A DNA stretch of 43,204 bases from a virus: positions 1 through 43,204 of IMG/VR virus record IMGVR_UViG_3300042691_043479. One strand, given 5' to 3'. This document shows, in pieces, positions 6,652-27,019 of the stretch. Position numbers and translations under genes: made by a program. Under the pieces are notes generated by a model, which worked only from the letters and a program-made list of their open reading frames with translations, did not search any database and was not told the DNA's origin. How positions within the stretch are numbered: the stretch's first letter is position 1; every line of letters starts with the position of its first letter.

Positions 6652-7221
6652 TTAAGCCCTTTCTAACTTTCTTAATCCTTTAATTAAACTATGTTTAGGT
6701 TTATTTTTAATTTTAGAAATTTCTCCTGCTGTTTTTTTCGATTCTTCTAAGAAGGAAGGTTTCTTGATCCACTTTTGTCTAAAAATATCATAAGCTGCAT
6801 TTAATTTTTCTATGTCAATTTTGCGAATAGTTGGAATGTAAATTATAGGATGTTTAGTCCCAGTAGCTAATTTGTCATTTACTTCTTTAATTTTTTGTAA
6901 AATTCTCTCTTTAGTAACATCATCCAAATTAGCAGTATTGAGTTGAAGTCTAATAACAATAGGGCATCTTTCAGAACTATCTTTGTCTAAGATGGGGCCT
7001 GTTAAGACATAATTCCAAATTCGAGTTTGCATAAAAGCAGACTCAGCATGGTTGATGTCTTCTATGTCTTTTCTAATTTGTTCTGCAACTCCTGGTAGTA
7101 AAATAGGATCATAGCCCTCATCTGTAAAATAAAAAACTTGAGGATCTAAAGAATTTGGCGGAAATTCTTTTTTATTCAGATTTGCATAAGCATCTCTATA
7201 TGCATTTTCAAACAACAACAT
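6652..7221 (-). CDS. Nucleotidyltransferase-fold-like protein, catalytic motif apparently lost (189 aa)
   Basis: The order of motifs resembles small nucleotidyltransferase-like proteins of T4-like marine phages: FYFTDEGYDPILLPGV (about 31-46), then a beta-strand NYVLTGPIL where active enzymes have a GS motif, then CPIVIRLQL where active enzymes have a DxD-type strand, followed by a helix, GTKHPIIYI (121-129) and a C-terminal AAYDIFRQKWIKKPSFL. Here the GS is GP (75-76) and the acidic pair is Cys-Pro-Ile (86-88), so catalysis looks lost and a structural or binding role is more likely. Two in-frame ATGs lie at 7227 and 7221. The second is preferred because the first overlaps the late-type box CATAAATA. 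It lies one base upstream of the gp14-like gene. Confidence 0.45.
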   Translation of the reverse strand: MLLFENAYRDAYANLNKKEFPPNSLDPQVFYFTDEGYDPILLPGVAEQIRKDIEDINHAESAFMQTRIWNYVLTGPILDKDSSERCPIVIRLQLNTANLDDVTKERILQKIKEVNDKLATGTKHPIIYIPTIRKIDIEKLNAAYDIFRQKWIKKPSFLEESKKTAGEISKIKNKPKHSLIKGLRKLERA

Positions 7222-7226
7222 AATCA

Positions 7227-7234
7227 TATTTATG
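7227..7234 (-). promoter_or_regulatory. Late-type box CATAAATA before NTase-like gene
   Basis: Seven of eight bases match the T4 late octamer. It lies 5 nt before the ATG at 7221 and overlaps the alternative ATG at 7227, and it follows a terminator. Confidence 0.65.
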
Positions 7235-7248
7235 GGGTTTATAAAACG

Positions 7249-7275
7249 AAAAAAGCCCCATTAAGGGGCTTAGTT
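7249..7275 (-). terminator. Rho-independent terminator after acidic protein gene
   Basis: The minus strand has AAGCCCC, a TTAAT loop, GGGGCTT and then a T run ending TTTTTTCG. It lies 24 bp after the stop at 7299 and before the late box of the next gene. Confidence 0.88.
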
Positions 7276-7298
7276 CGAAAAAATATGAAATTATTTTT

Positions 7299-8054
7299 TT
7301 ATTTAAAGAAATCTCCAGTTTTAACTGTAGAGTTAACTTGCATTCCTTTTTTGGATTGAAGAGATCCTTTTTTATCGCCTAATTCTTTAGGTTCGGGGGA
7401 ATCTTTGAGTTCGCCTTTGTGAACAGAACCACCTTTAGGTTTAACAGAACCAGCTTTCATGTGTCCTTTAGACATCATTTCAGTACCGGCTTTCATACCA
7501 TGAAGGGCGTGGCCTTTGTCTTCCATACTAACAGATTCTTCATAGGGTTCTTCGTTTTCGGTGTCTTCTTCTTCAGATTCTTCAACTTCTTCTGTCTCTT
7601 CAGAACCTTCTTCTTCGGAAAGTTTACTCATGATGTCTTGAAGTTTATCCATGATAGAACGAAGATCAGAAATAAGGTCGCCAGAATCTTCATCTTCTAA
7701 TTCGTCTACCATGTCTTCAGTTTCTGTGGGAACTTCGACAGAAGTTTCAGTAGCAGCTTCTTCGCCACCAAACTCCATTTTTTCTTCTTCTGTGATAGTG
7801 GCTTTGAAAAGTTTTTCAAAGGCGCCTTCGTAGGATTTAATTGATTCTTTTGTCATATCTTTAGCTTTAGCACCATCTGAGTATTTTTTATTTTCTTCTG
7901 GAGTCTCAACATCTTTTTTAGCTTTATCAGAACCTTGACCTTTAATGAGAGGAGCTTTGCCAATTTCCATTTTGGAAGTCACAACAGCTGATTTAACTTT
8001 TTCTTCACTGAGAAGAACTTTATTTGAATAGATTTCAGATAGTGGGTTTTTCAT
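7299..8054 (-). CDS. Acidic/basic low-complexity protein, possible head-core or structural protein (251 aa)
   Basis: It starts MKNPLSEIYSNKVLLSEEK. The middle (about 95-180) is extremely acidic, with a predicted helix at 128-148 (LISDLRSIMDKLQDIMSKLS) followed by runs of Glu/Asp/Ser. The last 70 residues are Gly/Lys/Met-rich and basic (HALHGMKAGTEMMSKGHMK and onwards), ending KTGDFFK. This charge separation resembles prohead core or scaffolding proteins, but no specific family is recognised. It is expressed from its own late-type box (GATAAATAAAT) and ends at a strong terminator (7249-7275), so it is probably monocistronic and perhaps abundant. Confidence 0.55.
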   Translation of the reverse strand: MKNPLSEIYSNKVLLSEEKVKSAVVTSKMEIGKAPLIKGQGSDKAKKDVETPEENKKYSDGAKAKDMTKESIKSYEGAFEKLFKATITEEEKMEFGGEEAATETSVEVPTETEDMVDELEDEDSGDLISDLRSIMDKLQDIMSKLSEEEGSEETEEVEESEEEDTENEEPYEESVSMEDKGHALHGMKAGTEMMSKGHMKAGSVKPKGGSVHKGELKDSPEPKELGDKKGSLQSKKGMQVNSTVKTGDFFK

Positions 8055-8060
8055 TATTAT

Positions 8061-8071
8061 ATTTATTTATC
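8061..8071 (-). promoter_or_regulatory. Late-type box GATAAATAAAT before acidic protein gene
   Basis: It contains ATAAATA, which ends 9 nt before the ATG at 8054 (the box itself ends 6 nt before it). Confidence 0.6.
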
Positions 8072-8088
8072 CTAATTGGTTTCTTTTT

Positions 8089-8580
8089 TTAGGAAAAAAA
8101 TAGTAAATTGATAAAATATGGATCAGTTAAAGATCCAAAAATATCCCGCGTTTCTATGTCTACATAGGTAGTAGTTTCATTAACCACAAATAAAAAACAA
8201 GCACTTTCAGGAACATTTGTTTCAGGAATAGTGGATCCAATAGTCAAATATTTTGTATTTGTGAAAGAATTAGAAAAAAATACTCTGTAAATACCAGTAG
8301 AACTTTTAACTACATTATTTATACCTTGGGATTTTACAATAGTAGCTGCTTTATTAAAATTCACCAAACACTTAGGTAAAGTGTTTAATTGAGAAGATAA
8401 AGTCGACACATAACTTGATAATAATTCTTTTTCAGATTCTAAAGTGTTTATATTTTTATCTTGTAAACAAATTTCGTCTTTTAATGTAGTAAAATTAGCA
8501 TTAATAGTTACCAAAGAATTACCCAAACATTCATTGATATCTATAGTAGCGATAGAGTTCTGGTCGTTGCAAAAAGTCAT
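8089..8580 (-). CDS. Structural protein, tandem paralogue A (163 aa)
   Basis: No named family. The N-terminal half has a coiled-coil-like helix with a GNSLVTINANFTTLKDEIC motif (about 20-38), followed by a helical LESEKELLSSYVSTLSSQL. The C-terminal half is beta-rich (GIYRVFFSNSFTNTKYLTIG, then TTYVDIETRD and PYFINLLFFS). The adjacent upstream gene has the same order of motifs, so the two arose by tandem duplication. The ATG directly follows the upstream stop (TAAATG), indicating coupled translation. The helix plus small beta head suggests a short trimeric fibre or collar-like piece; that role is inferred. Confidence 0.65.
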   Translation of the reverse strand: MTFCNDQNSIATIDINECLGNSLVTINANFTTLKDEICLQDKNINTLESEKELLSSYVSTLSSQLNTLPKCLVNFNKAATIVKSQGINNVVKSSTGIYRVFFSNSFTNTKYLTIGSTIPETNVPESACFLFVVNETTTYVDIETRDIFGSLTDPYFINLLFFS

Positions 8581-9099
8581 TTAAATAATAGTAAGAGAAA
8601 CAAAATCAGGATCGGCTGTAATCGCATCTAAAGATTGTATTTTAATTTCTAGATATTCTTTAGTGACAGTATAGGGTTGACTCCACACATAATTACCACT
8701 TGAGGAAGCTTTTAAACTATTGGTAGCTAAAACCAAATAATCAGGAGATGGGAGAGGCACAGTAAAATAAATTCGATAATCGCCTGTATTTTTTCTGTAA
8801 ACAGAAGAAACATTAAAGGAATTAAAAAGATATCTGTTAGGGGTAGAAGTAGAGATATTCCCGTCGACATCTTTAATTCCTGAAAATTTAATTAAAGCTT
8901 TAGAAACACTAACTGAATTAGAAGCAGATAAACTTACAACAAGACCATCCAAATTTTGAATATCTTGTTGAACGCTTGTTATATCTGCGTCATTATAACA
9001 AATACCATCTTTTAAATTTAAAAAATTGTCATTGATAGTTTCTAATGAATTTCCGATATATTCATTTCTACCAATTAATGTAATAGAAGGACAAGACAT
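8581..9099 (-). CDS. Structural protein, tandem paralogue B (172 aa)
   Basis: From the ATG at 9099 it starts MSCPSITLIGRNEYIGN. The motif GNSLETINDNFLNLKDGIC (16-34) matches GNSLVTINANFTTLKDEIC of the downstream gene, and the C-terminal DYRIYFTVPLPSPDYLVLAT, YLEIKIQSLDA and DPDFVSLTII line up with that gene's end. A longer in-frame start at 9138 is rejected: it would overlap the end of the 1507-residue gene, and the shorter form aligns with the paralogue and has CTAAATAAT 3 nt before it. Between helix and beta domain it carries an insertion (IKDVDGNISTSTPNRYLFNS) absent from paralogue A. Probably a small fibre or baseplate-attached structural protein. Confidence 0.65.
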   Translation of the reverse strand: MSCPSITLIGRNEYIGNSLETINDNFLNLKDGICYNDADITSVQQDIQNLDGLVVSLSASNSVSVSKALIKFSGIKDVDGNISTSTPNRYLFNSFNVSSVYRKNTGDYRIYFTVPLPSPDYLVLATNSLKASSSGNYVWSQPYTVTKEYLEIKIQSLDAITADPDFVSLTII

Positions 9100-9102
9100 G
9101 AG

Positions 9103-9111
9103 ATTATTTAG
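9103..9111 (-). promoter_or_regulatory. Late-type box CTAAATAAT before paralogue B
   Basis: It lies 3 nt before the ATG at 9099. The stop of the 1507-residue gene (AAATAA) is inside the box. Confidence 0.5.
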
Positions 9112-12100
9112 AGCAAGTAGGATCAAAGAAATCCACAATAGTTAAGAAATTTTCCCAAAGATACCCCAAAACGCGATTAATAACCGTAGAAGTCACAATT
9201 TCATTTTGACCGATAATCATTTTATCTTTTCCGTAAATTGGAGCTTTATATTTTTTGCAGGTTGAATTCGTGTTGTTTTCGTCTGAATAATATAAAGTAT
9301 TTCTAAAAAATTCAATGTTATCCCAAAGGCGTTGGAAAGACTTAGTATAAACCCAGTTTTGAACGTATTCATTTTTATCAATGTAAAGATCTTCTAGGTT
9401 CCAAAATTCTTTTGGAATTGAACCTTTGATTTTAATTCTTTCCATCAAATCAACATATTTCAAGATTCTGTTATTAGTAGTTACTAGTAAATTTCTGAAT
9501 TCATCATGGAAAACACTAGTAATATTATCTATACCATCTTCTGTAGATATAATCGTGCCACAAAATACCCCATTCCTAAAGAATTTTAAAATACTATTTT
9601 CAAAAACAACATATACAATTTCTTTATTATAAGAAGAAACAATTCTTCTTGCTTCGGTTGAAGAGGTATAAGAAGAATATTCATATGTGAATAAAAACTC
9701 CCCTTTGTAAGAATAAACTTCTATATTATTATCTGTAAGAATATGAACATTATCTTGACCATCAACACAAAGAGATAAAGGTTTGTTAATTGTTTTTACA
9801 GTCACTAATAACCAAGTGCCTGTATTTGAATAGTGTTTAACACATTGATTCCCTGTATCTACCACCCAAAGAGTGTCGTATTTATCTATGTGAATGTCAT
9901 TAGGATACGAATATTTGTTTTTGGAATTTTCTGTACCATAACCACCCCAATTGGTAAGCAAATACCACGTATCGCCAATAGCGTCTGGAATATATTTGTA
10001 AACAGCTACTTGCGAAAGAATACCATCTAAAACAAATATTTTTCCTTCAGAATCCCTGCAAACATTTTTAATGTCTGAAAAATTCAAAACATCATCAAAT
10101 TTTGATCTACTATCATAAAAATCAGTAGCTTTAGAATCTGGAATATATCTAATTTCAGTTTTTGTTACTGTAAATAAGTCATTATCATAAGAAGTTATCC
10201 CTTGATATACACACTTTTCTCTATTTCTTACATTTTTATAAAGATCGTAATATTCATTGATTTTGGGTATATTGACATTCCAATTTATGTCTCCGCAAAC
10301 ATCTTCCGCTGAAAGTGACCCAATTTCTTCAGGTTCATCTGCCCAAAGACTTTCATCATCCCAACTACCCCCGTCTTTCCATATTGCATTTTTAAAATTG
10401 TTTCCTGTAGATTTATATTGGTCTACCCATTTACCATAAGCACTTAATTCTCCTGTGTCTAAAACATTGTCCGCTGTTAAAAGAGATTTCCAAGTAACAC
10501 TATAATCTAAAGGAGTATTAAAACAATCAGCATCAGCCCAAGTCCAAAGTGGAGCAAAAATGGTATCTTGTTCTGTAACTTCTGGATCTGGTCCGAGATA
10601 ACCATAATATTCTTTAAAGGAACTTCTATACAATTTTCCTAAAGTGTCTAAATAATTTAAATTTTCGTAAAATTGTTCAAAACATGAGTTGATGTTATCA
10701 CTAACAACCCAATCATTAGAACCTACAGTAGGTTGTTTAGTCCAAGGTAATTGAATTGGTGTTGATATTGAACGATATTCTAAGGGCTCAATTGTTTCGT
10801 ATTCTGGTAAAACTTTTATAATATTAGGAAAAGTAGTTACTATAGGGTACGGCCATCTTCCTGTGTGAGCAGACACTGAAATAGTTTTTGATCCCAATAT
10901 ATCATAAGAAATACTGAACCCGCCATTTACAGAATCTCCCGTTAAGAAAACTGTTAATCCGTCATCAAACCCCACACCCAATCCAGTGATTAAATGAGTT
11001 TTAGATATAAGATTTTCAAAACTAACATTAACTCCAGTAAGAACATATTTATTGGGTGTGTAAATTTTAATATCAGGTGGTGCCCAAGTTACAAAATTTA
11101 AACCTTCGCCTATTGGATAGGTTGTATATTTAAAGGGTAATATGGAAGTATCTATGTAAGTTACCGACAAATAAGAATTAAGAGTAAGGTCGGTATTATC
11201 CCAATAACTAACCGTCGAATATTCTTCACCATCATTGTTTATACGCAAATTGTAAAAAAATTCTTCTGAAACGGAAGGATGTATAACAGCGGTGTTATAG
11301 AAAGGCCATTTTAAAGTGGATAAAGTCCAATTAATAGAAGTAACTCTAAATGGATTGAAAAAAGGACTAAACAAATCAAAATATAAAGCTGGTTCTTTTT
11401 TCCATTTTTTAGGGTAAGTCGCACTTAATGGACTTCCCATGGTATTCCACGAAGAAGGGTATACTGTTTGTGTTAATCCCAATTTTTTAACATTAGTAGA
11501 AGTAAAAGTATTCCAATTCCAAACTATGCCGTATTTTCCGAAACAATCAGATAATTCAATTTCTGCTGGACTGTTTGGGTTGTAATTTGGACCAAATAAT
11601 TCATAATTAATAGGTCCTTCTTTTTTCCATTTTTTAGGATAAGTGGCTGTTAATGAGCTCCCCAACGTATCCCAAGAAAGGGGATATGGTGTTTCATCAG
11701 CACATGACAGATCACCACACACAAAATTACCCCAAGACCAAATTACTCCGTATTTATCAAAACAAATTGGTGTTTGTGTGGTTCCTTTATAGTACGCAAT
11801 AAACTCCTCAGGTTCTCCTTCGGGTGGTAAATAAACGTCTAAAGTAATACCAGGATTAAACAAATAAACTTTTACTACTCGTGTAAAAACCTGTATAATG
11901 GGATCCCAATAAGGAGTAAAAGCAGTCAATGTAATGCTCTTGGTTCCAGGACTTTGAAAATTTAAAGTGAAATCTTGCCCAATATCAGAACCAGTTAATT
12001 CTGTTGTGGTTCCGTCAAATTCAACCTTGAGAGAAGTAATAAAATGAGTGTTGGTTGTATAATTTTTAAAATTTACTGAACTAACAGAAGGGATAATTTT

Positions 12101-13627
12101 AATGAGGTGAGTTTCAGGAACTACAGAGAGAGCAGGGGGTGCTATAGATGTAAAATCAACAGTTTCACTGATGATACTTGTTCTGTGTTGTGGTGGGTAG
12201 AAAGAAACGTCTGTGTGTGTGACAGATAAAATAGCATTTAAAGTAATGTCAGTATCTTCAAAATAACTGACATTAAAGCTTTCTTTACCTTCATCAAAAA
12301 GTCTAAACCCGTAATTATAAATTCCATGGTCTAATTTAGTAGTATCATGGGTGGTAGTCCAATTTTTAGTCGATAAGGTCCAAGTCAATGGAGAAGCAGA
12401 TACCACATTAATTTTACTTCCAAACGTGTCAAAGTTTCTCCATTTTTTCAATACAAAATCATATGGAGTAAGTTCTGTATCATTTATCAATTCCCATCTT
12501 TTAGGAAATGAACCACTAGTAACACATGCTAAAGTATTCCATGATGATGGATAAATAGACCCGGTATTTAAAGCGGTTAAATTGGGAATATTTTCATTTT
12601 TAAACGTATTCCATTTCCAATTTATTCCATATTTTCCTATACACTCGGGATAATCAGAAAGAACAGAAAGAGTGGAAAGAAAAGAAGAAATATAATAAGC
12701 AGGGGCTCCTGAATTTCTGGCAGCAGGAAGATAAATTTTATCAGCCGTTATTCCCGGATAATAAGAATAAACCTGTATTATATTATAAAAATCCATCACT
12801 ATAGGAATATTCCATTTCGTACTAAAAGCAGTGATAGAAATAGTTTTTGTTCCTATTGTGTCATAAGAAACAACAAAATTATTTGAAACATCAGATCCTG
12901 AAAGATTTAAAATAGTCCCGTTTCCTAAATTTATTACAAGTGCACTAATTAAATCCGTACGAGTAGTAGAATTGTTTACTAATACTGATGCATTAACTGG
13001 AATAAATTGTTTTGGGGTGGTAATTGCTATTCTAGGAGGAGCTACTGAAGTAAAATTAAAAATCTCATTAATTGATACATTTTCTCCAGTAGCTGGATCT
13101 ATTGACGTATCATAAACATGAGCAGTAATTACGGCATTGAGTGTAAAATTAGTATCGTCAGTAAAACTTGCAGTTCCGTATTCAGAACCATAATTTTTAA
13201 ATTTAAGAGCGTAATTAAAACTCTCACTAATAAATGGTTTTACCGATATGACATTTTGGGTATCCCACGTTTCCGAAGAAAGTGTCCATGTAATAGGGGT
13301 CACAAAAACCGAACTGAGATTGGGTTTAAATAAACTAAAAGCAGATAAACCTTCTTTGGTCCATTTTTTGGGATATGTTCCTATTGGAGAATGTTTTAAT
13401 GTATCCCAAGAAGAGGGATAAACAGTTTGAGATGAACTTAAATTTTGAACACTACCTGCAGATAAAATATTCCATCTCCAATCTAATCCATATTTGTCTA
13501 AACACGGATTAAATTCTTCATGAGGTAACCCTGTAAAAAAAGATGTATAATGATTATAAGCTTCATCAAGAGGCAAATAAATATTGGCAGATACACCAGG
13601 GTTAAATGTATATGTCAGGTTCGGCAT
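9104..13627 (-). CDS. Giant repeat virion protein with PKD-like repeats and NHL-like propeller (1507 aa)
   Basis: Residues 1-910 contain three long repeats. Each has a PGxxxxxYLP start, a C-x-x-KYG-x-x-W-x-W motif (about 42, 326, 622 and a fourth copy at 693), a YPxSWxT segment, a PKKW/PKRW segment and a PKD-like immunoglobulin fold ending GTKTISITAF, GTKSITLTAF or GSKTISVSAH. Residues about 950-1190 are Trp-rich (SWDDESLWADEPEE near 1087). Residues about 1195-1395 look like an NHL-type beta-propeller (KIFVLDGILSQVAVYKYIP, YPNDIHIDKYDTLWVVDTGN, PLSLCVDGQDNVHIL). The C-terminal 110 residues are helical. PKD and NHL folds are typical of extracellular adhesion. It is probably a large tail-associated or baseplate-associated adhesin. 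It starts MPNLTYTF, like the MPNVTY protein encoded at 16164-17057. Confidence 0.8.
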   Translation of the reverse strand: MPNLTYTFNPGVSANIYLPLDEAYNHYTSFFTGLPHEEFNPCLDKYGLDWRWNILSAGSVQNLSSSQTVYPSSWDTLKHSPIGTYPKKWTKEGLSAFSLFKPNLSSVFVTPITWTLSSETWDTQNVISVKPFISESFNYALKFKNYGSEYGTASFTDDTNFTLNAVITAHVYDTSIDPATGENVSINEIFNFTSVAPPRIAITTPKQFIPVNASVLVNNSTTRTDLISALVINLGNGTILNLSGSDVSNNFVVSYDTIGTKTISITAFSTKWNIPIVMDFYNIIQVYSYYPGITADKIYLPAARNSGAPAYYISSFLSTLSVLSDYPECIGKYGINWKWNTFKNENIPNLTALNTGSIYPSSWNTLACVTSGSFPKRWELINDTELTPYDFVLKKWRNFDTFGSKINVVSASPLTWTLSTKNWTTTHDTTKLDHGIYNYGFRLFDEGKESFNVSYFEDTDITLNAILSVTHTDVSFYPPQHRTSIISETVDFTSIAPPALSVVPETHLIKIIPSVSSVNFKNYTTNTHFITSLKVEFDGTTTELTGSDIGQDFTLNFQSPGTKSITLTAFTPYWDPIIQVFTRVVKVYLFNPGITLDVYLPPEGEPEEFIAYYKGTTQTPICFDKYGVIWSWGNFVCGDLSCADETPYPLSWDTLGSSLTATYPKKWKKEGPINYELFGPNYNPNSPAEIELSDCFGKYGIVWNWNTFTSTNVKKLGLTQTVYPSSWNTMGSPLSATYPKKWKKEPALYFDLFSPFFNPFRVTSINWTLSTLKWPFYNTAVIHPSVSEEFFYNLRINNDGEEYSTVSYWDNTDLTLNSYLSVTYIDTSILPFKYTTYPIGEGLNFVTWAPPDIKIYTPNKYVLTGVNVSFENLISKTHLITGLGVGFDDGLTVFLTGDSVNGGFSISYDILGSKTISVSAHTGRWPYPIVTTFPNIIKVLPEYETIEPLEYRSISTPIQLPWTKQPTVGSNDWVVSDNINSCFEQFYENLNYLDTLGKLYRSSFKEYYGYLGPDPEVTEQDTIFAPLWTWADADCFNTPLDYSVTWKSLLTADNVLDTGELSAYGKWVDQYKSTGNNFKNAIWKDGGSWDDESLWADEPEEIGSLSAEDVCGDINWNVNIPKINEYYDLYKNVRNREKCVYQGITSYDNDLFTVTKTEIRYIPDSKATDFYDSRSKFDDVLNFSDIKNVCRDSEGKIFVLDGILSQVAVYKYIPDAIGDTWYLLTNWGGYGTENSKNKYSYPNDIHIDKYDTLWVVDTGNQCVKHYSNTGTWLLVTVKTINKPLSLCVDGQDNVHILTDNNIEVYSYKGEFLFTYEYSSYTSSTEARRIVSSYNKEIVYVVFENSILKFFRNGVFCGTIISTEDGIDNITSVFHDEFRNLLVTTNNRILKYVDLMERIKIKGSIPKEFWNLEDLYIDKNEYVQNWVYTKSFQRLWDNIEFFRNTLYYSDENNTNSTCKKYKAPIYGKDKMIIGQNEIVTSTVINRVLGYLWENFLTIVDFFDPTCSK

Positions 13628-13632
13628 TATAT

Positions 13633-13642
13633 ATTATTTAAT
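13633..13642 (-). promoter_or_regulatory. Late-type box ATTAAATAAT before 1507-aa gene
   Basis: It lies 5 nt before the ATG at 13627 in a 33-bp intergenic gap. Confidence 0.55.
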
Positions 13643-13660
13643 AAGTCAAGAAGACGACAA

Positions 13661-16126: not shown

Positions 16127-16130
16127 AATA

Positions 16131-16140: not shown

Positions 16141-16163
16141 GCTAATCACTACTGTTATGTATT

Positions 16164-17062: not shown

Positions 17063-17072
17063 ATTATTTAAG
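17063..17072 (-). promoter_or_regulatory. Late-type box CTTAAATAAT before 297-aa gene
   Basis: It lies 5 nt before the ATG at 17057. The TAA stop of the PKD gene is the first TAA of the box. Confidence 0.5.
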
Positions 17073-18066
17073 TAAAAAAATTTGTCCCTGAATTTCCGAA
17101 ATATTCTGTATTTTCTGTTTTTGTTGCATTTCTAATTTTGTTAGGGGGAATTTTAATCTGTATGTTTACTTCTGATGATAAATTAGTTTGAAATGATAAA
17201 GTTTGATCGACATCAAAAATGTATAAATTACCATCAACATTATTTCTTGTTTTAATTAAGTTAAGTGTTTGTGGACTCGCGGACAAAAATAAAGGTCCTA
17301 TTGTTGTGCTACAAGAATCTCGTGTATCGGTGTTAGAAGTATAACAACTTAGAGAAGGATAAAAAACAGGGTAATCATTATTATGTTTAACAAAAGTATG
17401 AATTATATCATAATTTCTTACATCCAACAGATCTTGCGAAAACCGATTTGTGAATATTAAATCAGGGTTACTAGTAATTTGTGAATATCTGGTTATGCTT
17501 TTAATTTCTGTTTCATCGTTAAAATCCCAATCTATGCGTTCAATTGGAAAGGAACCAGATATGCAATATTTGGGGGAAAATCTTATGGTGAGGGGAGAAA
17601 CCCCATATACTGGTTGTGTTTCGCAATTTATTTTAGCAATTGGTGGTATTTCTTTAAGTTCTATAAACTCATTTTTTATGATGGAACCACTTATACTTTT
17701 TGTAATAGATGTTTGTTTAACGTATTTAGTGGTTAATTTAACATTGTATTTACCTGGTATCGTGTAGGTATGATTGACTGGTAAAAAATTATCAGAAAAG
17801 CAATCCGATTTAAAACCACTTTGAGTTAATGTTAAAGTGGTATTGTAATAGTCTCCGAAATCCCATTCGTGCACGATTATGTCATAATCGTCGGTAAGAT
17901 CAGAAGTATTTTGAAAATAAACTTTTAAGGAAGGCGAATATCCTGAAATATAATTTGTTGATGTGTAAGCTGTTGTTTTAAGTCCATCTGTTAAGGGGGT
18001 TCCTTTATCCCAACTATAATTGGGAGGAACTGTAAAAGCAGACAATACTGTAAAATTAACATCCAT
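17068..18066 (-). CDS. Protein with two PKD-like domains (332 aa)
   Basis: PKD domains are extracellular Ig-like folds. The first spans about 45-130: SPSLKVYFQNTSD, then HEWDFGDYYNTTLTL, then NHTYTIPGKYNVKLTTKYV. The second spans about 140-250: PPIAKINCETQPVYGVSPLT, RIDWDFNDETEI, then HTFVKHNNDYPVFYPSLS. The WDFGD and WDFND cores are hallmark PKD sequences. The last 80 residues have no recognised fold. There is no signal peptide, as expected for a virion component. It probably acts as a rigid spacer or adhesin on the tail. A late-type box (ATTAAATAAT) lies 10 nt upstream. Confidence 0.8.
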   Translation of the reverse strand: MDVNFTVLSAFTVPPNYSWDKGTPLTDGLKTTAYTSTNYISGYSPSLKVYFQNTSDLTDDYDIIVHEWDFGDYYNTTLTLTQSGFKSDCFSDNFLPVNHTYTIPGKYNVKLTTKYVKQTSITKSISGSIIKNEFIELKEIPPIAKINCETQPVYGVSPLTIRFSPKYCISGSFPIERIDWDFNDETEIKSITRYSQITSNPDLIFTNRFSQDLLDVRNYDIIHTFVKHNNDYPVFYPSLSCYTSNTDTRDSCSTTIGPLFLSASPQTLNLIKTRNNVDGNLYIFDVDQTLSFQTNLSSEVNIQIKIPPNKIRNATKTENTEYFGNSGTNFFT

Positions 18067-18076
18067 TGTTGGTTTT

Positions 18077-18086
18077 ATTATTTAAT
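18077..18086 (-). promoter_or_regulatory. Late-type box ATTAAATAAT before PKD gene
   Basis: It lies 10 nt before the ATG at 18066 in a 48-bp gap. Confidence 0.55.
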
Positions 18087-18114
18087 GTAAAATTTAAAGT
18101 ATAGTTTTATTAAA

Positions 18115-18369
18115 TTAATCTTCTAATGAAAGAGGCGATGTAAACAATTCCTCCTCAATGGGTCCGAGAGAATCATGTGAAGCAAGAGGCAAAGCAAGTT
18201 CAGCAATTTTAGCTTCGCATTCTTCTTTTGTACCTACAAATAGCTTTTCTTGTGTAGACGTACCGATGTTTGTTTCAAACAATTTAATAATATACTGATC
18301 GTTGAAAAGTAATTGCCACGGTCCTTCTGTACTCGTTGACCATCCTTGTTCGTTTGGTTCTATTAACAT
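18115..18369 (-). CDS. Small protein downstream of beta-repeat adhesin (84 aa)
   Basis: It starts MLIEPNEQGWSTSTEGPWQL and contains LFVGTKEECEAKIAELAL, a strand-helix pattern seen in small phage fibre-associated proteins; function is unknown. The ATG at 18369 lies one base after the stop of the beta-repeat gene (TAATATG), so coupling is likely. A GTG at 18384 in the same frame is possible but would extend into the upstream gene by 14 bp. It could be a chaperone or accessory factor of the adjacent adhesin, by position only. Confidence 0.6.
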   Translation of the reverse strand: MLIEPNEQGWSTSTEGPWQLLFNDQYIIKLFETNIGTSTQEKLFVGTKEECEAKIAELALPLASHDSLGPIEEELFTSPLSLED

Positions 18370-18370
18370 A

Positions 18371-20263
18371 TTATGAAATAACACTCAAAGTTGAAGTTAA
18401 AGAACTGTAATTAGCAGTTCTGCCTGGTGCTCCTATTAAAGACACAGAAGCATACGTTTGTGTAGTTGATCCTGGAAAGAATTTGAACGCGTCTCCTATA
18501 CTAGGAGGAGTGTTGAATGAAACTGTTAGAGTAGTATTTGTAAATGTTGCAGTTGCTGTCACAGCTCCTGTAGTTTTAGCAACAGTGACGGTGCCAGCTG
18601 AAATGTCTGTTGTTCCTGTATATGTATGAGCAAAACTTCCCAATGCAAGTGTGCCAGGACCTAGTTTGGTAAGTCCTCCACTTCCTCCATCATTACTAAA
18701 AGGAACAGCCATAGCTAGAGTTCTTCCAGAATAAACTGAAATTTTTGCTCCGCCGTTTTTGATTATTAAATTCCACGTAACGCCAGCAGGTGTTACAGCA
18801 GGCAAGTTTCTGTCTGTTCCTTTATCATAATCAAACGTTCCTCCGTTAAAATTAATTGTATTTGTATGAGTATTTCCTATAGCTGGAGTGTTACCAGTTA
18901 CTTGATTAAGTTTTAAAGATCCTCCATTTAAATTAATTGTTGATGTTGACGAAATTCCAACAGTTGAAGATCCAAACAGTAAAAGGGCTTGGTTTGTATT
19001 ATAAGCAGACCCGGTCCAAGGACCTGTTATATCTACAACACCATTGTTTAGTGTAAAAACAGAAACAGGAGTTGGGTTGTCTGTTGCGTGACCTCCTCCT
19101 GAAATATACATTTGCGCAAATGCATGTGTGCCACCATCAACAATGATTGAGGCGGTTGGCCCAGAGAACCACACAGACCCGTTTGCACTAAGAGCGCCGC
19201 TGTTCAAAATAATTGTACCATTTGAACCCGTCGATCGATTATCTCCGATCATTAAACCGCCATACAAAGTCACATTAGCACCAGAAATTGTTAATGTTCC
19301 TACGTTATTAGCATTTTGAGCCACGGTAAAACTTCTCGGTGCCGCTTGTGGTCCTTGATTGGTTTGAGTAATAGTTCCTGTAAAATTTGCATTCGCTGGA
19401 GCAGCAGCCGTTCCCTGACATAATGTAAAGTCTTTACTTGTAGTGAAATTCCCAGAAATGTTTAGAGTTCCTCCAGTGTGAGTAAGTACTCCACCAAGAT
19501 TACCAGTAGAAAGTGTTTGTGTTCCAGTTCCGCTTTTTGTGAAGGTTCCTGTTGTACTTGATAACAAACCAACAAACGTAGCAGTATTTGCTGACGAAAC
19601 TGTTAAATTGTTTCCTCCAATAGAGATTGTTCCTGCTCCTTCTAATGAAGCAACTGTTTCCGATCCATCAATAGAAAACATTGCTCCAGACAGCACTTCT
19701 ATTGCGGATGCATCCGAAATCCGATTTGCAGTGCTTGTATTAAGAGTTCCCTGGGAGACAATTGTTTTACCGGTATAAGTATTAGCTCCCCGTAAAGTAA
19801 CAGTCCCATTTCCGCTTTTTGTAATAGATCCAACTCCAGACAGAACCCCGTTAAAACTCATATCCCCTACTGCTTTAATAATATTGCCGCTAGGATTTAA
19901 TTTAATGTCGTTATTAATTGTTTGTAAAGTCGAAGAATTATTTATAAATCCTCCAGTTCCAATAGTCAATCTATTACCAGATAATTGGAACTGGCCAGCT
20001 GTGGAATCAAACCCAATGCTGCCGAATAGAGTATCTGTAGTAAAATTATTAAAAGCAGTCAAACGGTTAGTGCCAGCAAAGGTTAAAAGAGAATTTGATG
20101 TTGGGATTTTTGATCCACTCCAATTGTTGGCTGTACTCCAATTATTGTCTGCTCCTAAACCAACCCAATAAAACCCTCTATTCCAAACAAGGTTGGATCC
20201 TCTCCAGATCTGTAAAGCAGGAAAAGTTCCAAATTGTATGTCTGTCGCACTTAATAATTCCAT
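18371..20263 (-). CDS. Autotransporter-associated beta-strand repeat adhesin (630 aa)
   Basis: It starts MELLSATDIQFGTFPALQIW followed by RGSNLVWNRGFYWVGLGADN, an N-terminal module seen on phage tip proteins. Beta-strand repeats are clear: ITKSGNGTVTLRGANTYTG near 140, FTKSGTGTQTLSTGN near 250 and LTKLGPGTLALGSFAHTYTG near 545, each with a following GTL/GTV strand. The rest is Gly/Thr/Ser/Asn-rich parallel beta-helix-like sequence. In bacteria these repeats are found in type V secreted adhesins; here no signal peptide or outer-membrane barrel exists, so it is a virion protein. The ATG overlaps the upstream fibre stop as TAATG. It is paralogous in design to the partial gene at 1-441. Confidence 0.85.
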   Translation of the reverse strand: MELLSATDIQFGTFPALQIWRGSNLVWNRGFYWVGLGADNNWSTANNWSGSKIPTSNSLLTFAGTNRLTAFNNFTTDTLFGSIGFDSTAGQFQLSGNRLTIGTGGFINNSSTLQTINNDIKLNPSGNIIKAVGDMSFNGVLSGVGSITKSGNGTVTLRGANTYTGKTIVSQGTLNTSTANRISDASAIEVLSGAMFSIDGSETVASLEGAGTISIGGNNLTVSSANTATFVGLLSSTTGTFTKSGTGTQTLSTGNLGGVLTHTGGTLNISGNFTTSKDFTLCQGTAAAPANANFTGTITQTNQGPQAAPRSFTVAQNANNVGTLTISGANVTLYGGLMIGDNRSTGSNGTIILNSGALSANGSVWFSGPTASIIVDGGTHAFAQMYISGGGHATDNPTPVSVFTLNNGVVDITGPWTGSAYNTNQALLLFGSSTVGISSTSTINLNGGSLKLNQVTGNTPAIGNTHTNTINFNGGTFDYDKGTDRNLPAVTPAGVTWNLIIKNGGAKISVYSGRTLAMAVPFSNDGGSGGLTKLGPGTLALGSFAHTYTGTTDISAGTVTVAKTTGAVTATATFTNTTLTVSFNTPPSIGDAFKFFPGSTTQTYASVSLIGAPGRTANYSSLTSTLSVIS

Positions 20264-21684
20264 TAAATTACAATATAAAGAGTGTTAGGATCTGGAGAAA
20301 CAGGTAAAGCTGAAACAGCTACAATAGTTGAAACTGCACTTGTTCCTGGGGTAGTGGTTACAACTGTTTTTACATAAATCGAAGAATTACCAGAATATGT
20401 TGTATATGCACTTTGCCAATTAGAGCTTAAAGCTCTGACTTCAGTATCAACATTAGACGCCCATTGCGCTGAGTTGCTTTGGACTGTCGTGTATGTGGAT
20501 TCCCAATTAGAAGTTAAAGACCTGACTTCGGTATCAACATTAGATGCCCATTGAGCTGAGTTACTTTGAACCGTGGTGTATGTGGATTCCCAATTAGAAG
20601 TTAAAGACCTGACTTCGGTATCAACAGAAGTCAAATCTGTTAAAGCACTTAAAGAAATCGTATTACCATTAGAGATAGAAAGTTGTTTATTTAATTCATT
20701 AAATGAAAGGGTTTGAGAATCTGTTTCAGAAGTAAGGAATGTAGAGGAAATTAAAGAATAAGCACTAGACATTTCATAGGCTTTATCCCAATTACCCGTT
20801 AAAGCCCTGACTCCAGTATCAATGTTTGATGCCCATTGAGCTGAGTTACTTTGAACCGTGGTGTATGTGGATTCCCAATTACCTGTTAAAGTTCTAACCT
20901 CAGTATCGATACCAGTACTGCCCACATCAATTAGTGCACTTAAAGAAACTGTATTGCCATTAGATATGGAAAGATCTTTAGTGCCTTCATTAAATGAAAG
21001 GGTTTGAGAATCTGTTTCAGAAGTAAGAAATGTAGAACTAAGGGTTTTAAATGTATTGTAGGTTGATTCCCAATTACCCGTTAAAGCCCTGACTCCAGTA
21101 TCAATGTTTGATGCCCAAAAAGCTGAATTAGTTTGAACTACTGTAGAAGCATTTTGCCAATTACCCGTTAAAGCCCTGACTCCAGTATCAATGTTTGATG
21201 CCCAAAAAGCTGAATTGCTTCGGACTGTGGTATAGGTTGATTGCCAATCGCCAGATGCACTTCTATAAATGGTAGTGGGAAGAAGAGTTGCGGTAGTTGA
21301 AGCAACATTTGTTTTGTAATTATTAAAATCAGACGTTAAAACTAATTGAGAAGAAATGCTATTTACTGTAGAGTTAGTAGTATAAGAAGAAGAATTCGAT
21401 GTGTAATTTGTATAGGTACTTTGCCAATTAGAAGTTAAAGCTCTGACTTCAGTGTCAATTCCTGTATTATTTGCACTTAGTAAAATTATTTTAAGTGTAT
21501 TATCATTTACATCTGATAACCATTCGCTTATGTGTTTAGTCGAACCTGTTACATTTTTTGCTGATAATGAAAGTGCATTATAAAAATTAGTTTTTTTTGT
21601 TTGGCCAGATCCATGTACAATTAAAAGATCAGAAGGTTCTAATTGTAATTTTTCTGTTAATTCTGGGATGGTTTTATTTGCCAT
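20263..21684 (-). CDS. Trp-repeat tail-fibre-like protein (473 aa)
   Basis: It starts MANKTIPELTEKLQLEPSDL, a common phage fibre N-terminus. The body repeats a 29-residue unit (NWESTYTTVQSNSAQWASNV followed by DTEVRSLTS) many times, with interleaved FLTSETDSQTLSFNE and ISNGNTISLSAL modules. The first part of the unit and the NLSFNEITKDLSL module also appear in the fibre at 438-1928. It ends SPDPNTLYIVI, matching SDTLYIIVG of that fibre. A regular 29-residue period with one Asn-Trp pair suggests a trimeric coiled or beta-spiral shaft. It is immediately followed by an overlapping beta-repeat adhesin, so the pair may assemble as shaft plus tip. CGATAAATAAT lies 10 nt upstream. Confidence 0.75.
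   Translation of the reverse strand: MANKTIPELTEKLQLEPSDLLIVHGSGQTKKTNFYNALSLSAKNVTGSTKHISEWLSDVNDNTLKIILLSANNTGIDTEVRALTSNWQSTYTNYTSNSSSYTTNSTVNSISSQLVLTSDFNNYKTNVASTTATLLPTTIYRSASGDWQSTYTTVRSNSAFWASNIDTGVRALTGNWQNASTVVQTNSAFWASNIDTGVRALTGNWESTYNTFKTLSSTFLTSETDSQTLSFNEGTKDLSISNGNTVSLSALIDVGSTGIDTEVRTLTGNWESTYTTVQSNSAQWASNIDTGVRALTGNWDKAYEMSSAYSLISSTFLTSETDSQTLSFNELNKQLSISNGNTISLSALTDLTSVDTEVRSLTSNWESTYTTVQSNSAQWASNVDTEVRSLTSNWESTYTTVQSNSAQWASNVDTEVRALSSNWQSAYTTYSGNSSIYVKTVVTTTPGTSAVSTIVAVSALPVSPDPNTLYIVI
20436..20622 (-). repeat. 87-bp tandem repeats in Trp-repeat fibre
   Basis: The segment starting near 20436 recurs at 20523 and, in part, at 20610, a period of 87 bp (29 codons), encoding NWESTYTTVQSNSAQWASNV plus DTEVRSLTS. 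More diverged copies continue to about 21480. Confidence 0.8.
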
Positions 21685-21694
21685 GGATTTGTAA

Positions 21695-21704
21695 ATTATT
21701 TATC
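21695..21704 (-). promoter_or_regulatory. Late-type box GATAAATAAT before Trp-repeat fibre
   Basis: It lies 10 nt before the ATG at 21684 in a 40-bp gap and has ATAAATA. Confidence 0.6.
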
Positions 21705-21724
21705 GTTGTTTGTTTGTTGAAAAT

Positions 21725-24700
21725 TTAAGGAATTACTATAATTTTTTGTTCTATTGGGGGTATTTCAGGTTCTGTAGTAATGTAACCATTATTTGGATAT
21801 CCTGCAGTATAAAGATAATAAATTGCCGGTGCCGTATTAATGGTTAATGAATAATGAATGGGCCCGAAATCATTAAGAATCATAAAAGAAGCATCATATA
21901 TACCCTCAGTTGGTACTATGCCTGTGATCAATCCGTTTGTTGTTAAAGTTAACCAATCAGGGAAATCAACTGCTTGATAAATTGCTGGTCCATTTTCCGC
22001 GCTGCATTGAAAATTAAAAGTTTCTAAAGCCACAGCACTTAAAATTAAGCTATGTTTAATATAAGAGGGTTCTGTTAATGCTTCAGGGGGGGTTGCATTG
22101 TAAATCGTTATTTGTTTTAATGATAATGGTGAAACGTCTTTAATATTAAAATCTATTAATAAATCATTATAATTTTCATCTTTGCAAAGTAATGTAAGTA
22201 AATATTCTTTGTTTAAAGAATTATACGATAAAGAAGGTCTACCTACTTCTGTGATATTTAAAGAAGATAAACCAATTATTGATAAAATGTCTTCTGTTAT
22301 TAATGGAAATACCTTTTTAAATTTATTTTTATTTAAATCTAATTGATATAATTCAGGAGCTATTATAGAGGGTACGGAACTGTAATCTTCTATTGAAGAA
22401 GAAGAAAGACTACAAACTGAAATTGTTACCAATTTCTGTTCAGGAAAAAACCAAGTGTCTCCTGGCTTAGCTATAGCACCATAATTTTTTAATTCCAAAA
22501 GAATTTTAAACTCGTCTTCTTTCAAAAGAAATTCACTAGAAGACTCTAAAACCAAAGAAGGATAAGGCGCATATTCTCTTAATAGGTTAGTAAAAGTAGG
22601 AACCACTAAAGAAAGATATCTAGAATCATCTGCAATAGAAAAAATTTCATCTTTTTCAAAATCATAGTTAATTTTTTCAAACAATAAAACTCCAGGAGTT
22701 TCAATCATTAAAGTGTCAAAAAATAAATCTATTTTTTTGATGTTTAACCCAGACAGATCTGTAATATAGTTTAAAACATAAGATCCTGTTAAATCATTTA
22801 TTATAGTAGTTCCTTTATATGTATCGAACACTGCAGATAGTGCGACTGCTCCGGGCGACACGAATTGAGAATTTTTCCTAACCCAAATTTCACCCGGGGT
22901 GTTAATTCTTTCTGAATAAGGAACATTTTCAAGATCTTTATATAAACCATATTGATTACCAAAAATGTCTGTGACCCAATTATCTAATAAAAATCCAGAT
23001 TTTTTTAAAATTTGATCTTCTGTCCATTGTTTAATATCTAATTCACCTGTGTAAGAAACTGGATAATTTGCTAAGTCTTTCCATTCTGAATCTTCTTTAC
23101 CAGTCCAAGGAGATTGCATCGACTTGGGTGTTATTAATCCTAAATTTATATTAGAATTGGTATCATATCCTGATTGATATGGGATAAATTTTTGGTGTGT
23201 TTTAAAAACCTCTTTATTTATATTTCCAGCTAATTCTCCTGTAATAAATGATTCTTTAAGCCATTCATTGTTTTCAGAATCAATAATATATGGTGTTTCT
23301 TGAAATTCTTTAGTTAATCCACGACCATTTATTATGCCATTTTGATTAGAAAAATTATTCGATAAAGTTGCACTAAAAGAACCATAACTAACATTATAAT
23401 TTTTATTGATATATTGTGAAGCTCCTAAATTATTAGGAATAAAATAACCACCAACCTCACTCACGCTATACAAATCTTCAAAAGCAGGAAACGCTGCTAC
23501 GGTAGGATAAAATTGATTAGATAAATTAGCAAAAGGCTGTAAAGCTTCTATTGTTAATGTTTCTGATATTGTGGGATAAATGGTTTCTGCAATTTCTGGA
23601 GTAGCTGTAATATTCCAGGTAAAAGAATTTATTGCGTTGTAATAAACTTCTACTGGTTCGTTTTCAATTATATTTTGAAATAAAAGATTTGAAGCTGAAG
23701 TTGTTGCGTTAACATTTAATGATGTTTTAATGTTTTGTAATTGAAAAGATAAATTTGAATCAGAAGAAGTGGTAAATTCTAAAGTACACCACTGATTTTC
23801 ATCCACAGTTATTTGCATCTCGAACGGTTGAGACCAAACCATTTTTTGAGGATAGAGACGATCGTACTCAACTTTAATGCCCGAAGAAAAAGAAATATCA
23901 GAAAATCGAGGTTGTGATATTAGGTTGTGGTCGTCAACTAATCTTATATAATTTCCAACAACATCAATACCACCATACTTAGTATATTGATTTTTTCCAG
24001 AATAAGATTTTGCCCAAAAAGGTTTAGCGCCTATATTTTCTATTCTGGTGTATTTATTGCTTGAAGATGAGTTATAATCCCACCCATTAAGTTTAGTGTT
24101 TAAAACAAATCCGGGAATTGGTGTACTAATAGAAGTAAAAGAGGGAACTAAAGTTATAGGGGATACTGCGGTAACTGGTGGAATATTATTAAAAACATAA
24201 TATCCAGAAATAGAAGGATTATTTGCATTTGCGGTTAAAGCAATGACGGATATGTTATAAATTCCACTCAAAGTGGGAAGGAAAGTAAAGCTTTGAGAGT
24301 TTTTAAATGTTTTTGAAATTTGGTGGGGTGATGTAATTGTCCAGGATTCAACATTTACTATAGCATCAAAAAATAATTCTGGGTATTGTGGGTCTTGATT
24401 TAAATTTAAAGTGGTAACAGGATAACTTACTACTATCGGTCTAATGTCAGAAATAGTAGTATAATCTGCGTTAGTCCAAATAGAGCCCCGATTTTCCAAA
24501 ACATCTGTTATTTCTTCAACTACACCAGAAAGAGTATAATAAGAAGATAGTAACCGGGAATATGAAATGATATCTCCCGGATTTAAAATCATTTGAGACG
24601 GTTCTGATGTATTAATCCATTGTCCTTCACTGTTCTTTTTTGCTTTAATCCATACATTTTTATTTTGTGTTGGATATGAATGTCGAACAACATAACTTGG

Positions 24701-27019
24701 TAATTTTACCGATTCCAAGTCTTGTTTTACTACATTGGCTCTATAGTAAATATATTTTTTATTTTTTCTCAAATAAAAACTATTACCTGATCTGTTAAGA
24801 TTGTCTACATCTGTCCAGAGATCTTCACTCGCCCAATTTTCTTTATCGCTCCAAATACCGTCATCTGGAAGTTCCCCGGGTTTTACAAAAGTATTATTAG
24901 AATACCAAATACCATCACCCCACCCGATATTTAAATTTGTTTTGTACCAAGCAAAAGTGTCTTTAAATAAATCTTCGTTAGTTAAACTTAATTCTTCGGG
25001 TGTGGAGTTGTCTTCCACAATAAAATCGGCTAAAGAACTGTAATCTGTGTATTTTTGGCCGGGATGCCCAAAAGGTGCAAATAAAACCTGATTACAATCA
25101 CATAAATCATAATCAAGATAAGAAACATTTTTTGTTGTGGCATATTTGCAACTGGATTGATGTTTTATAGTTTTAAATACATCATTAACATTTGTATAAT
25201 CGGGTCCAGTCCAAACAAATTTTGTATAAACACCTGCACTCAAATGTAATTGTAAAGAATTTTGAGTGGGCATTATTAAATTCTGTTCAGGAATAAAATA
25301 ATCACTTGCAGACAACCAACAGCATTCTATAGCAGACTCAATAGGGTCTTTGTAATTTTTAAGTTTATAAATTACATCTGATGTAGATAATGAATTAGAA
25401 CCACAAGAAAAATTAAAATTAATAGATGAAAGGGGTAAAGGATTACAGACGTCACTGACATCTTCAGGATAATAAACAGGAAATTCTTGAGTAGTGTCTA
25501 AATTTTCATACGGCCAATAAATGACGGAGTTACCTCCGGCTTTAATCGATAAATCTGTGGTGTCAAAACGATACAGCCAGCCTTCTACCGGAATAAAATT
25601 AAAAGAAGGTTGGTTGTATCCTGGTGGAATAAACCAAACTTTAATTTTATCGGCTTGAGAATAACTCTTACTAGCATACGCTTTATTTTCAATAAGAGAT
25701 GAATTGTTAATTGAAATGGGATTAACTGAAGATAAACTTAAATCTGTGTTCCAATAAACCTTTTCAACTTCTTGTTTAAATTCGTCATTTAAATATTGGT
25801 ACCTAACATCACTTTTAAATCCGAAACCAGTCCAAGACAAATCATCGCCAGACAAACCAAAACCAGGATAAGGAAATCGAAAAGAAGTTTTAGAAGAAGG
25901 AGCTATAGTACATTCTAATGTATCTTTTTTATATTCATAAAAATTATTTCTCAGCCAAGCTCCTTGTGTGCCTAAAACAGTTTTAATAAAAACAGTATCT
26001 GCGATTTCTATACTTGATCCTGCTGTGGCAATAGTCTCTAAGTTTAAATCTTGAATCGAGACAGGATTATACCGAGGCAATTCTGAAATTTTTGTAGGAT
26101 AAACATAAGAAGGCCAATAAAAAAAGTTATTGCCTGGTGTTATGTCTATTGCATAAAAATCTTTTTTAGAGCTTGGAGAGGGTGCTGTAGTAGTATATTT
26201 GTCTCTTCCTAAATATTTTTTAACAAGAAGTTCATTTAGTGTTTGTCTGTTTTCTTCAGAAAAATCAGAAAAATCATCCGATAATGAAAATGTTCCTGTT
26301 TTGTAAATCCATTCGGTAGATGTTAATGCTAAATTCCTGCTTTGTAAAAAATCTTGAAGTTCTTTGTTGTTTAAATCAAAATATGCAGAAACTGGTAATG
26401 TAGGTGATTGGTCAAAATAAGAGTGGTCGTCATACAATTCGTCTATTTGAATAGTAATAGAATCTTTGATAGCGCTTAATTCTGGTAGAGTCTGCCAGAT
26501 TGCTGCGGGTACTGTTATCGGGGAATTACTTTTTTTGCTGTACTCAGAAAGTATAAATTTTTGAACCTGATCAGTAATTCCTATATTTGTTCCTATTTGA
26601 TTGTATCTTAATTTAGATTCTTTAACGGTGTCTCTTAGTTTAAGATAATGTAAAGAAATATCTTTTAATTTTCTGGCGAAATATGGTATCGCTAAAAGTA
26701 ATTCTTTATCATTATTAATATCTACGTTATTGTACCAATTTTCTAATTCTTCTTGAGATAGAAAAATTTGTAATTGTTTTAAAAAGGTAAGATAATTTAA
26801 TTTTATTTTTAAATTATTATCGGTTGTTTTATTAGATTGGTTTTTATACCAATTTATCAAATATTGATTATATTGGCTAAATTCTTGAGATGGTATGATT
26901 CCTCTGTATGATTTATACCATTCCTTATAAGAGAGAGGTGAATTTATATCTGTAGAATTTGAAGATACAGATACTGGTTGTGCGTATTTTTCTAAAGTTT
27001 GTGGATTGCTAATATTCAC
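21725..27019 (-). CDS. Giant virion protein with Trp-rich and He_PIG Ig-like C-terminal domain (1764 aa)
   Basis: The largest gene of the window. It uses GTG at 27019 (MNISNPQTLEKYAQPVSVSS). The first 170 residues are helical; much of the rest is beta-rich with many Trp/Tyr/Pro. A Trp-rich stretch near 715-735 (DDGIWSDKENWASEDLWTDV) matches the segment at 1087 of the 1507-residue protein. Residues about 870-950 have a PKD-like strand pattern. Near the C-terminus (about 1655-1735) a putative Ig domain of the He_PIG type is seen: DFPDWLTLTTNGLITGIVPT followed by EGIYDASFMILNDFGPIHYS. It lies next to the baseplate wedge genes, so a baseplate-attached arm or adhesin is likely. The start lies 5 nt after CTTAAATAAT, whose AAATAA contains the upstream stop. 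Confidence 0.75.
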   Translation of the reverse strand: MNISNPQTLEKYAQPVSVSSNSTDINSPLSYKEWYKSYRGIIPSQEFSQYNQYLINWYKNQSNKTTDNNLKIKLNYLTFLKQLQIFLSQEELENWYNNVDINNDKELLLAIPYFARKLKDISLHYLKLRDTVKESKLRYNQIGTNIGITDQVQKFILSEYSKKSNSPITVPAAIWQTLPELSAIKDSITIQIDELYDDHSYFDQSPTLPVSAYFDLNNKELQDFLQSRNLALTSTEWIYKTGTFSLSDDFSDFSEENRQTLNELLVKKYLGRDKYTTTAPSPSSKKDFYAIDITPGNNFFYWPSYVYPTKISELPRYNPVSIQDLNLETIATAGSSIEIADTVFIKTVLGTQGAWLRNNFYEYKKDTLECTIAPSSKTSFRFPYPGFGLSGDDLSWTGFGFKSDVRYQYLNDEFKQEVEKVYWNTDLSLSSVNPISINNSSLIENKAYASKSYSQADKIKVWFIPPGYNQPSFNFIPVEGWLYRFDTTDLSIKAGGNSVIYWPYENLDTTQEFPVYYPEDVSDVCNPLPLSSINFNFSCGSNSLSTSDVIYKLKNYKDPIESAIECCWLSASDYFIPEQNLIMPTQNSLQLHLSAGVYTKFVWTGPDYTNVNDVFKTIKHQSSCKYATTKNVSYLDYDLCDCNQVLFAPFGHPGQKYTDYSSLADFIVEDNSTPEELSLTNEDLFKDTFAWYKTNLNIGWGDGIWYSNNTFVKPGELPDDGIWSDKENWASEDLWTDVDNLNRSGNSFYLRKNKKYIYYRANVVKQDLESVKLPSYVVRHSYPTQNKNVWIKAKKNSEGQWINTSEPSQMILNPGDIISYSRLLSSYYTLSGVVEEITDVLENRGSIWTNADYTTISDIRPIVVSYPVTTLNLNQDPQYPELFFDAIVNVESWTITSPHQISKTFKNSQSFTFLPTLSGIYNISVIALTANANNPSISGYYVFNNIPPVTAVSPITLVPSFTSISTPIPGFVLNTKLNGWDYNSSSSNKYTRIENIGAKPFWAKSYSGKNQYTKYGGIDVVGNYIRLVDDHNLISQPRFSDISFSSGIKVEYDRLYPQKMVWSQPFEMQITVDENQWCTLEFTTSSDSNLSFQLQNIKTSLNVNATTSASNLLFQNIIENEPVEVYYNAINSFTWNITATPEIAETIYPTISETLTIEALQPFANLSNQFYPTVAAFPAFEDLYSVSEVGGYFIPNNLGASQYINKNYNVSYGSFSATLSNNFSNQNGIINGRGLTKEFQETPYIIDSENNEWLKESFITGELAGNINKEVFKTHQKFIPYQSGYDTNSNINLGLITPKSMQSPWTGKEDSEWKDLANYPVSYTGELDIKQWTEDQILKKSGFLLDNWVTDIFGNQYGLYKDLENVPYSERINTPGEIWVRKNSQFVSPGAVALSAVFDTYKGTTIINDLTGSYVLNYITDLSGLNIKKIDLFFDTLMIETPGVLLFEKINYDFEKDEIFSIADDSRYLSLVVPTFTNLLREYAPYPSLVLESSSEFLLKEDEFKILLELKNYGAIAKPGDTWFFPEQKLVTISVCSLSSSSIEDYSSVPSIIAPELYQLDLNKNKFKKVFPLITEDILSIIGLSSLNITEVGRPSLSYNSLNKEYLLTLLCKDENYNDLLIDFNIKDVSPLSLKQITIYNATPPEALTEPSYIKHSLILSAVALETFNFQCSAENGPAIYQAVDFPDWLTLTTNGLITGIVPTEGIYDASFMILNDFGPIHYSLTINTAPAIYYLYTAGYPNNGYITTEPEIPPIEQKIIVIP

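Follow-up and report, generated by a model that had tools for sequence, protein, structure and literature searches.

A conserved protein backbone with variable fibre genes between the gp6- and gp14-like genes of an uncultured T4-superfamily phage lineage

In pelagi- and cyanomyophages, a host recognition cluster (HRC) that extends from VrlC to gp14 encodes concanavalin, collagen and YadA-type proteins, and gp7 is absent (PMC7029224). A VrlC-like protein has also been reported in phage pf16 (PMC5587285), and far-T4 phages retain little of the T4 core gene set, the part for host interaction having gone undetected in them (PMC4360716). Here we describe the corresponding region of IMG/VR virus record IMGVR_UViG_3300042691_043479, a fragment of 43,204 bases that was analysed whole and is called the window below. 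The interval under study runs from Z1764 to B191 (6652-27019; protein short names give a letter and the length in residues) and lies between the gp6/gp7-position genes and a gp14-like gene. By the homologues of gp6, gp25, gp53 and gp14 in the window and those of gp17, gp18, gp20 and gp23 in its relatives, the virus is a contractile-tail phage of the T4 superfamily.

Like the HRC, the present locus leads from gp6-side baseplate genes to gp14 through a large, fibre-rich variable island, and gp7 is missing. Unlike in the HRC, neither VrlC nor gp8 was detected, a conserved set of PKD, LamG and propeller proteins spans the interval, and gp13 lies beyond gp14. The T4 gene 6-14 interval is likewise flanked by gp25/gp6 and gp14 and presumably encodes the baseplate periphery; the present locus differs from it in having no relative of gp7-gp12 or wac, in its about 18 kb of lineage-specific genes and in the placement of gp13 outside the interval. 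In pf16, too, no gp8-gp12 is annotated between gp6 and gp14 and one giant protein follows gp6, but gp120, which matches the gp13 of the present lineage, precedes gp14, and none of the backbone described below is found. Giant proteins occupy the gp6-gp14 interval in Syn9, S-WAM1, HTVC008M and pf16. Because cyanophages, pelagiphages and pf16 have large non-T4 proteins between gp6 and gp14, the arrangement is not unique, and the interval is a new version of the known HRC arrangement rather than an isolated oddity. Far-T4 phages resemble the present lineage in being relatives of T4 from aquatic, uncultured sources in which only a few genes of the T4 core are present. Backbone profiles found no match in the 120 kb searched of the cultured far-T4 phage RM378, and trees of gp17 and gp20, markers that lie outside the window, did not place the lineage firmly relative to RM378, whose branch in the gp17 tree was too long (support 32/13).

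IMG/VR scans with gp6, L821, gp14 and Z1764 yielded about 150 related loci; most of the relative contigs are fragments with mechanically called open reading frames (ORFs), and the adjacency counts given here are non-redundant and refer to one strand. Z1764, K332, C297, L821 and N1507, together with G621 just upstream, make up a backbone that, along with gp25-gp6 and A251-B191-gp14, is almost invariant. In the window, all of these genes lie on the minus strand, as do the fibre genes discussed below. The gp25-like wedge gene (30719..31231; phrog_261, 4e-25) and the gp6-like wedge gene that anchors the module (28895..30715; phrog_219, 2.5e-39) are adjacent in 55/55 cases, and gp6 adjoins G621, the protein in the gp7 position (27026..28891), in 57/57. 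Z1764 (21725..27019), found at 74 loci, follows G621 without an intervening ORF in 47 of 51 cases, and in 69 of 72 loci it has G621 no more than six ORFs upstream; the order gp25-gp6-G621-Z1764 is nearly invariant across the 72 informative loci. C297 (16164..17057) adjoins L821 (13661..16126) in all 35 cases, L821 adjoins N1507 (9104..13627) in all 38, and K332 (17068..18066) is located between the gp25-gp6-G621-Z1764 block and the C297-L821-N1507 block.

We propose that the interval is probably the host-recognition cluster of this lineage, consisting of a conserved, lineage-specific baseplate or tail-tip scaffold with plug-in slots. In this model, G621 and Z1764 would directly extend the gp25-gp6 wedge, and K332, C297, L821 and N1507 would form a second co-linear scaffold set, linked to A251-B191-gp14. 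Most of the scaffold proteins consist of immunoglobulin (Ig)/PKD, LamG and beta-propeller modules, and exchangeable fibre genes lie between Z1764 and K332 (Z/K slot), between K332 and C297 (K/C slot) and between N1507 and A251 (N/A slot). Fibres of the N/A slot would attach via a common N-terminal adaptor (..ECIGNSL.TIN.NF..L..), and their C-terminal ends show no detectable similarity. With the scaffold constant and the fibre ends variable, host range would shift through fibre swaps.

A preliminary description had presented the interval as an array of adhesion-type domains in place of T4 gp8-gp13, an observation that proved largely right and an interpretation that we could support in part. The limits of the interval coincide exactly with ORFs, flanked by gp25/gp6 and gp14. 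Pfam recovered the PKD domain in K332 (PF18911, 2.6e-6, above the cut-off), the LamG domain in L821 (PF13385, 1.4e-11) and the autotransporter repeat PATR in P630 (PF12951, 1.1e-14). The NHL propeller of N1507, which scored 0.018 in a single-sequence Pfam search, was retrieved by comparing the family profile with the PDB (TRIM3 NHL, 1.4e-21), whereas the He_PIG domain named for Z1764 had no Pfam match in the window protein or nine relatives. Adhesion-type domains are thus present, but most of the interval is conserved backbone, and it also contains the non-adhesion genes A251 and B191.

The backbone proteins themselves are modular. N1507 comprises repeats, the propeller at about 1180-1400 and a conserved helical C-terminus. 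The AlphaFold2 (AF2) model of L821 (mean predicted local distance difference test score, pLDDT, 65.5) has a confident central propeller at about 300-580 with NHL and WD40 matches in Foldseek. The G621 alignment shows Ig/PKD domains at 1-370 followed by a conserved helical C-terminal part, and its AF2 model (mean pLDDT 83.3) shows Ig-like domains and then a helical part. An NHL-propeller segment (about 400-700 residues) that most relatives carry in G621 is missing from the window protein and from its closest relatives, L002 and L004. Z1764 has no Pfam, PHROG or PDB relative, and C297 no PDB or Pfam match. Single-protein tblastn searches with Z1764, N1507 and the 541-residue protein D541 against 50,697 phage records gave no match; no relatives of the tested scaffold proteins, Z1764 and N1507, were thus detected in cultured phages. 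When whole alignments were scanned against PHROG, nearly all matches were isolated and single-member, and no host or prophage came to light when GTDB genomes were screened with the L821 family.

Sequences from T4, S13, Aeh1, KVP40, Syn9, S-WAM1, HTVC008M, pf16 and phiM12 served to build profiles for tail proteins, among them gp7-gp13 and wac. With hhalign, deeper alignments included, no interval protein matched gp7-gp13 or wac, whereas the positive controls in the same comparison, the gp6 and gp14 families of the window, reached 99.6% (to T4-superfamily gp6) and 98.3%, respectively; as described before, no interval protein is recognisable as gp8-gp13. In relatives, two contigs (217 and 218 kb) in which gp3, 4, 13, 14, 15, 17-21, 23, 25 and 53 were detected had no profile match to gp7-gp12, wac or gp5. 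The 217-kb relative (G009, loci L112-L122) has an exact 127-base terminal repeat and is probably a complete genome and a useful reference for the lineage. Seven related contigs, the 217-kb one among them, contained no member of the gp8 family PF09215, which scores in T4, Syn9, HTVC008M and phiM12, of the gp9/gp10 family PF07880, which scores in T4 and Syn9, or of the gp11 family PF08677, which scores in T4. VrlC had no profile match among the window proteins or in the 217-218-kb relatives, and the gp5 lysozyme profile had none in the lineage. Profile-search absence of this kind leaves room for structural homology. The absence of the gp8-gp11 families from the seven contigs and the strict linkage to gp25-gp6, with gp6 and G621 adjacent in 57/57, support the earlier suggestion of a rebuilt baseplate periphery. 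This is a T4-superfamily lineage without detected gp8, a gene treated as core. That gp8-gp13 were replaced does not hold for gp13, which lies outside the interval in relatives, and for the remaining genes the replacement is historically unproven.

The backbone could instead represent very diverged T4-type gp7, gp8 and gp10, in which case nothing was replaced and adhesion domains were merely added. We consider this unlikely, although deep homology can escape pairwise profile methods: deep alignments show no profile signal against gp7-gp12 where gp6 and gp14 score 98-99%, PF09215 gives a score for Syn9, HTVC008M and phiM12 and none for the present lineage, and the models of G621 (pLDDT 83) and L821 (65.5) have no T4 baseplate protein among the PDB matches listed. 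The same gene order after gp25-gp6, the Ig-like start of G621 with the large propeller insert of most relatives, and the listing of gp8 as core in T4 relatives (PMC2993671) count in its favour. The fold comparison with the T4 baseplate that the preliminary description had called for covered two backbone proteins, G621 and L821, with no gp8-gp13 fold among the matches listed. For G621, the PDB matches listed are generic multi-domain Ig-type proteins, and the single strong viral fold match is an uncultured-phage PKD protein. Identification of G621 as gp7 was not adopted: no profile match to gp7 was found and no T4 gp7 is among the fold matches listed. A weak alignment of G621 with HTVC008M gp055 (3-5%) was inspected and judged to be chance. 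A stronger form of our proposal, in which the baseplate periphery of the lineage is non-homologous to T4 gp7-gp12 and consists of six large, mostly Ig/LamG/propeller proteins on a conserved gp25-gp6 core, together forming an unchanging scaffold whose three sockets take exchangeable fibres, is put forward tentatively, as possible rather than probable.

Extra ORFs collect at three sites, the Z/K slot (10/33), the K/C slot (10/29) and the N/A slot (33/36). In the window, the Z/K slot holds R473 (20263..21684) and P630 (18371..20263), whose guanine-cytosine (GC) contents of 0.352 and 0.396 exceed the 0.26-0.32 of the backbone; both have almost no relatives among the first 79 loci, P630 having one. 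P630 is the PATR protein. The fibre-like R473 has a KTIPEL..D N-terminus and a Phage_tail_C-like end (PF24243, 0.024, below the cut-off), and its N-terminus resembles those of K/C slot genes, most of whose proteins share a KISQL..GG....D..PVARG-type start. The N/A slot holds the small fibres T185 (8581..9099; phrog_11355, 2.5e-7), which bears the ECIGNSL-type adaptor, and its paralogue T163 (8089..8580; phrog_11355, 5.9e-7). The listed TTG start of T185 at 9138 overlaps N1507; an internal ATG at 9099 is favoured by the N-termini of relatives and is likely the true start.

Within the first 60 residues, a G[ND]SL..IN.NF-type motif occurs in 43 of 70 distinct N/A ORFs. Of 780 ORFs from outside this set, 15 have it, and several of these 15 are clearly fibres of this type in other positions. 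When 40 N/A fibres were aligned on the motif, the 40 N-terminal residues were identical at 0.41 and the last 90 residues at 0.13 (shuffled, 0.10). Outside the motif, identity was 0.46 in the preceding 8 residues and 0.08 in a control segment from +60 to +100. Such a pattern is the one usually seen in adaptor-anchored fibres whose tips have been exchanged; here the adaptor would attach the fibre and the variable tips may bind receptors.

On one version of the preliminary description's reading, every large protein would be a receptor-binding arm, giving many specificities per particle. Adhesins often contain LamG, PKD, NHL and PATR domains, but tips that bind receptors should show the variability of the slot tips, and the backbone genes, unlike the slot genes, keep their type and order in a diverse set of relatives, which makes this reading improbable. 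Several receptor specificities are supported for the slot genes, whose tips vary freely on a common adaptor, but not for the backbone. The scaffold-and-slot model tells constant from exchanged parts in an uncultured phage group that is widespread, with the scaffold genes as lineage markers and the slot genes that carry a common adaptor as likely host-range determinants.

The position of the block is not fixed in all relatives. In the close relatives G001 (locus L083) and G002 (L085), whose gp6 is 83-90% identical, G621 is followed directly by A251-B191-gp14, and the block is absent at this site; they are naturally occurring "empty" forms of the interval. The metagenome of G001 also yielded a 55-kb contig (G003, L080-L082) that carries the 18-kb block adjoining the portal gene gp20, with Z1764 at its far end, and the block is split into two or inverted in G007, G013, G028, L175 and L198. 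Therefore, the T4-like position of the block is common but not obligatory. Such empty, relocated and rearranged versions count in favour of a mobile cassette of adhesin genes that has no relation to the baseplate and was inserted by chance between G621 and A251; we regard this as very improbable, since gp25-gp6-G621-Z1764 is nearly invariant in the informative loci, most long contigs carry the backbone as a single set, and the block showed no recombinase gene.

Several points weigh against the host-recognition model that we prefer. The G001 and G002 genomes are incomplete and have no block at the gp6-gp14 site, so that some members of the lineage may not have the whole scaffold. Placement of the interval products in the virion, as parts of the baseplate, is our inference. 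No domain could be recognised in Z1764 or C297, and the wedge role suggested for G621 follows from its position, fold searches having returned no gp7 match. Finally, members were found by the motif, and the sequence identity of the adaptor partly reflects that selection.

On the gp14 side, the gp14-like neck gene (5577..6650; phrog_679, 1e-11; PF11649, 1.9e-5) adjoins B191 (6652..7227), directly upstream, in 46/46 cases, and B191 adjoins A251 (7299..8054) in 45/46. A251, an acidic, low-complexity protein with 45 distinct homologues, is strictly linked to B191-gp14, and both A251 and B191 are non-adhesion genes conserved with gp14. In relatives, gp13 follows gp14 directly or after one opposite-strand gene in 41 loci (some being overlapping pieces of one contig) and adjoins gp4 or gp20 in G007 and G009; it was not seen within the window. 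Thus gp13 is not lost from the lineage and in the present virus lies beyond the window edge or has moved, and the gp13/gp14 order of T4 is not obligatory. B191 was considered as gp13 and rejected, since gp13 is located elsewhere in relatives and B191 has no match to the gp13, gp15 or gp3 profiles. In L091 (G012), L129 (G015) and many other loci the order is gp14, gp13, a small gene and gp4. A collar reading, also raised in the preliminary description, would make the interval products head-neck or whisker components, as adjacency to gp14 on one side might suggest. With gp13, gp15, gp3 and gp4 located elsewhere, wac undetected and the conserved gp14-proximal genes A251 and B191 not of adhesion type, we find it barely credible.

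In the remainder of the window, the minus-strand order starts with a tape-measure-like protein, a 311-residue protein, a gp53-like protein and the 541-residue protein, followed by a mostly plus-strand island. After the island come gp25, gp6, G621, Z1764, R473, P630, K332, C297, L821 and N1507, then T185, T163, A251, B191, gp14 and, downstream of gp14, a second fibre/adhesin cluster on the minus strand (1..5533; tail-fibre, fn3+LamG and PATR; GC 0.35-0.42). The island (31279-37575), set amid tail genes, is a nucleotide-metabolism region with nrdB, a short nrdA (551 residues), dUTPase and clamp loader genes. The 541-residue protein (37836-39461) adjoins the gp53-like gene and shows a weak C-terminal likeness to gp27 hub proteins.

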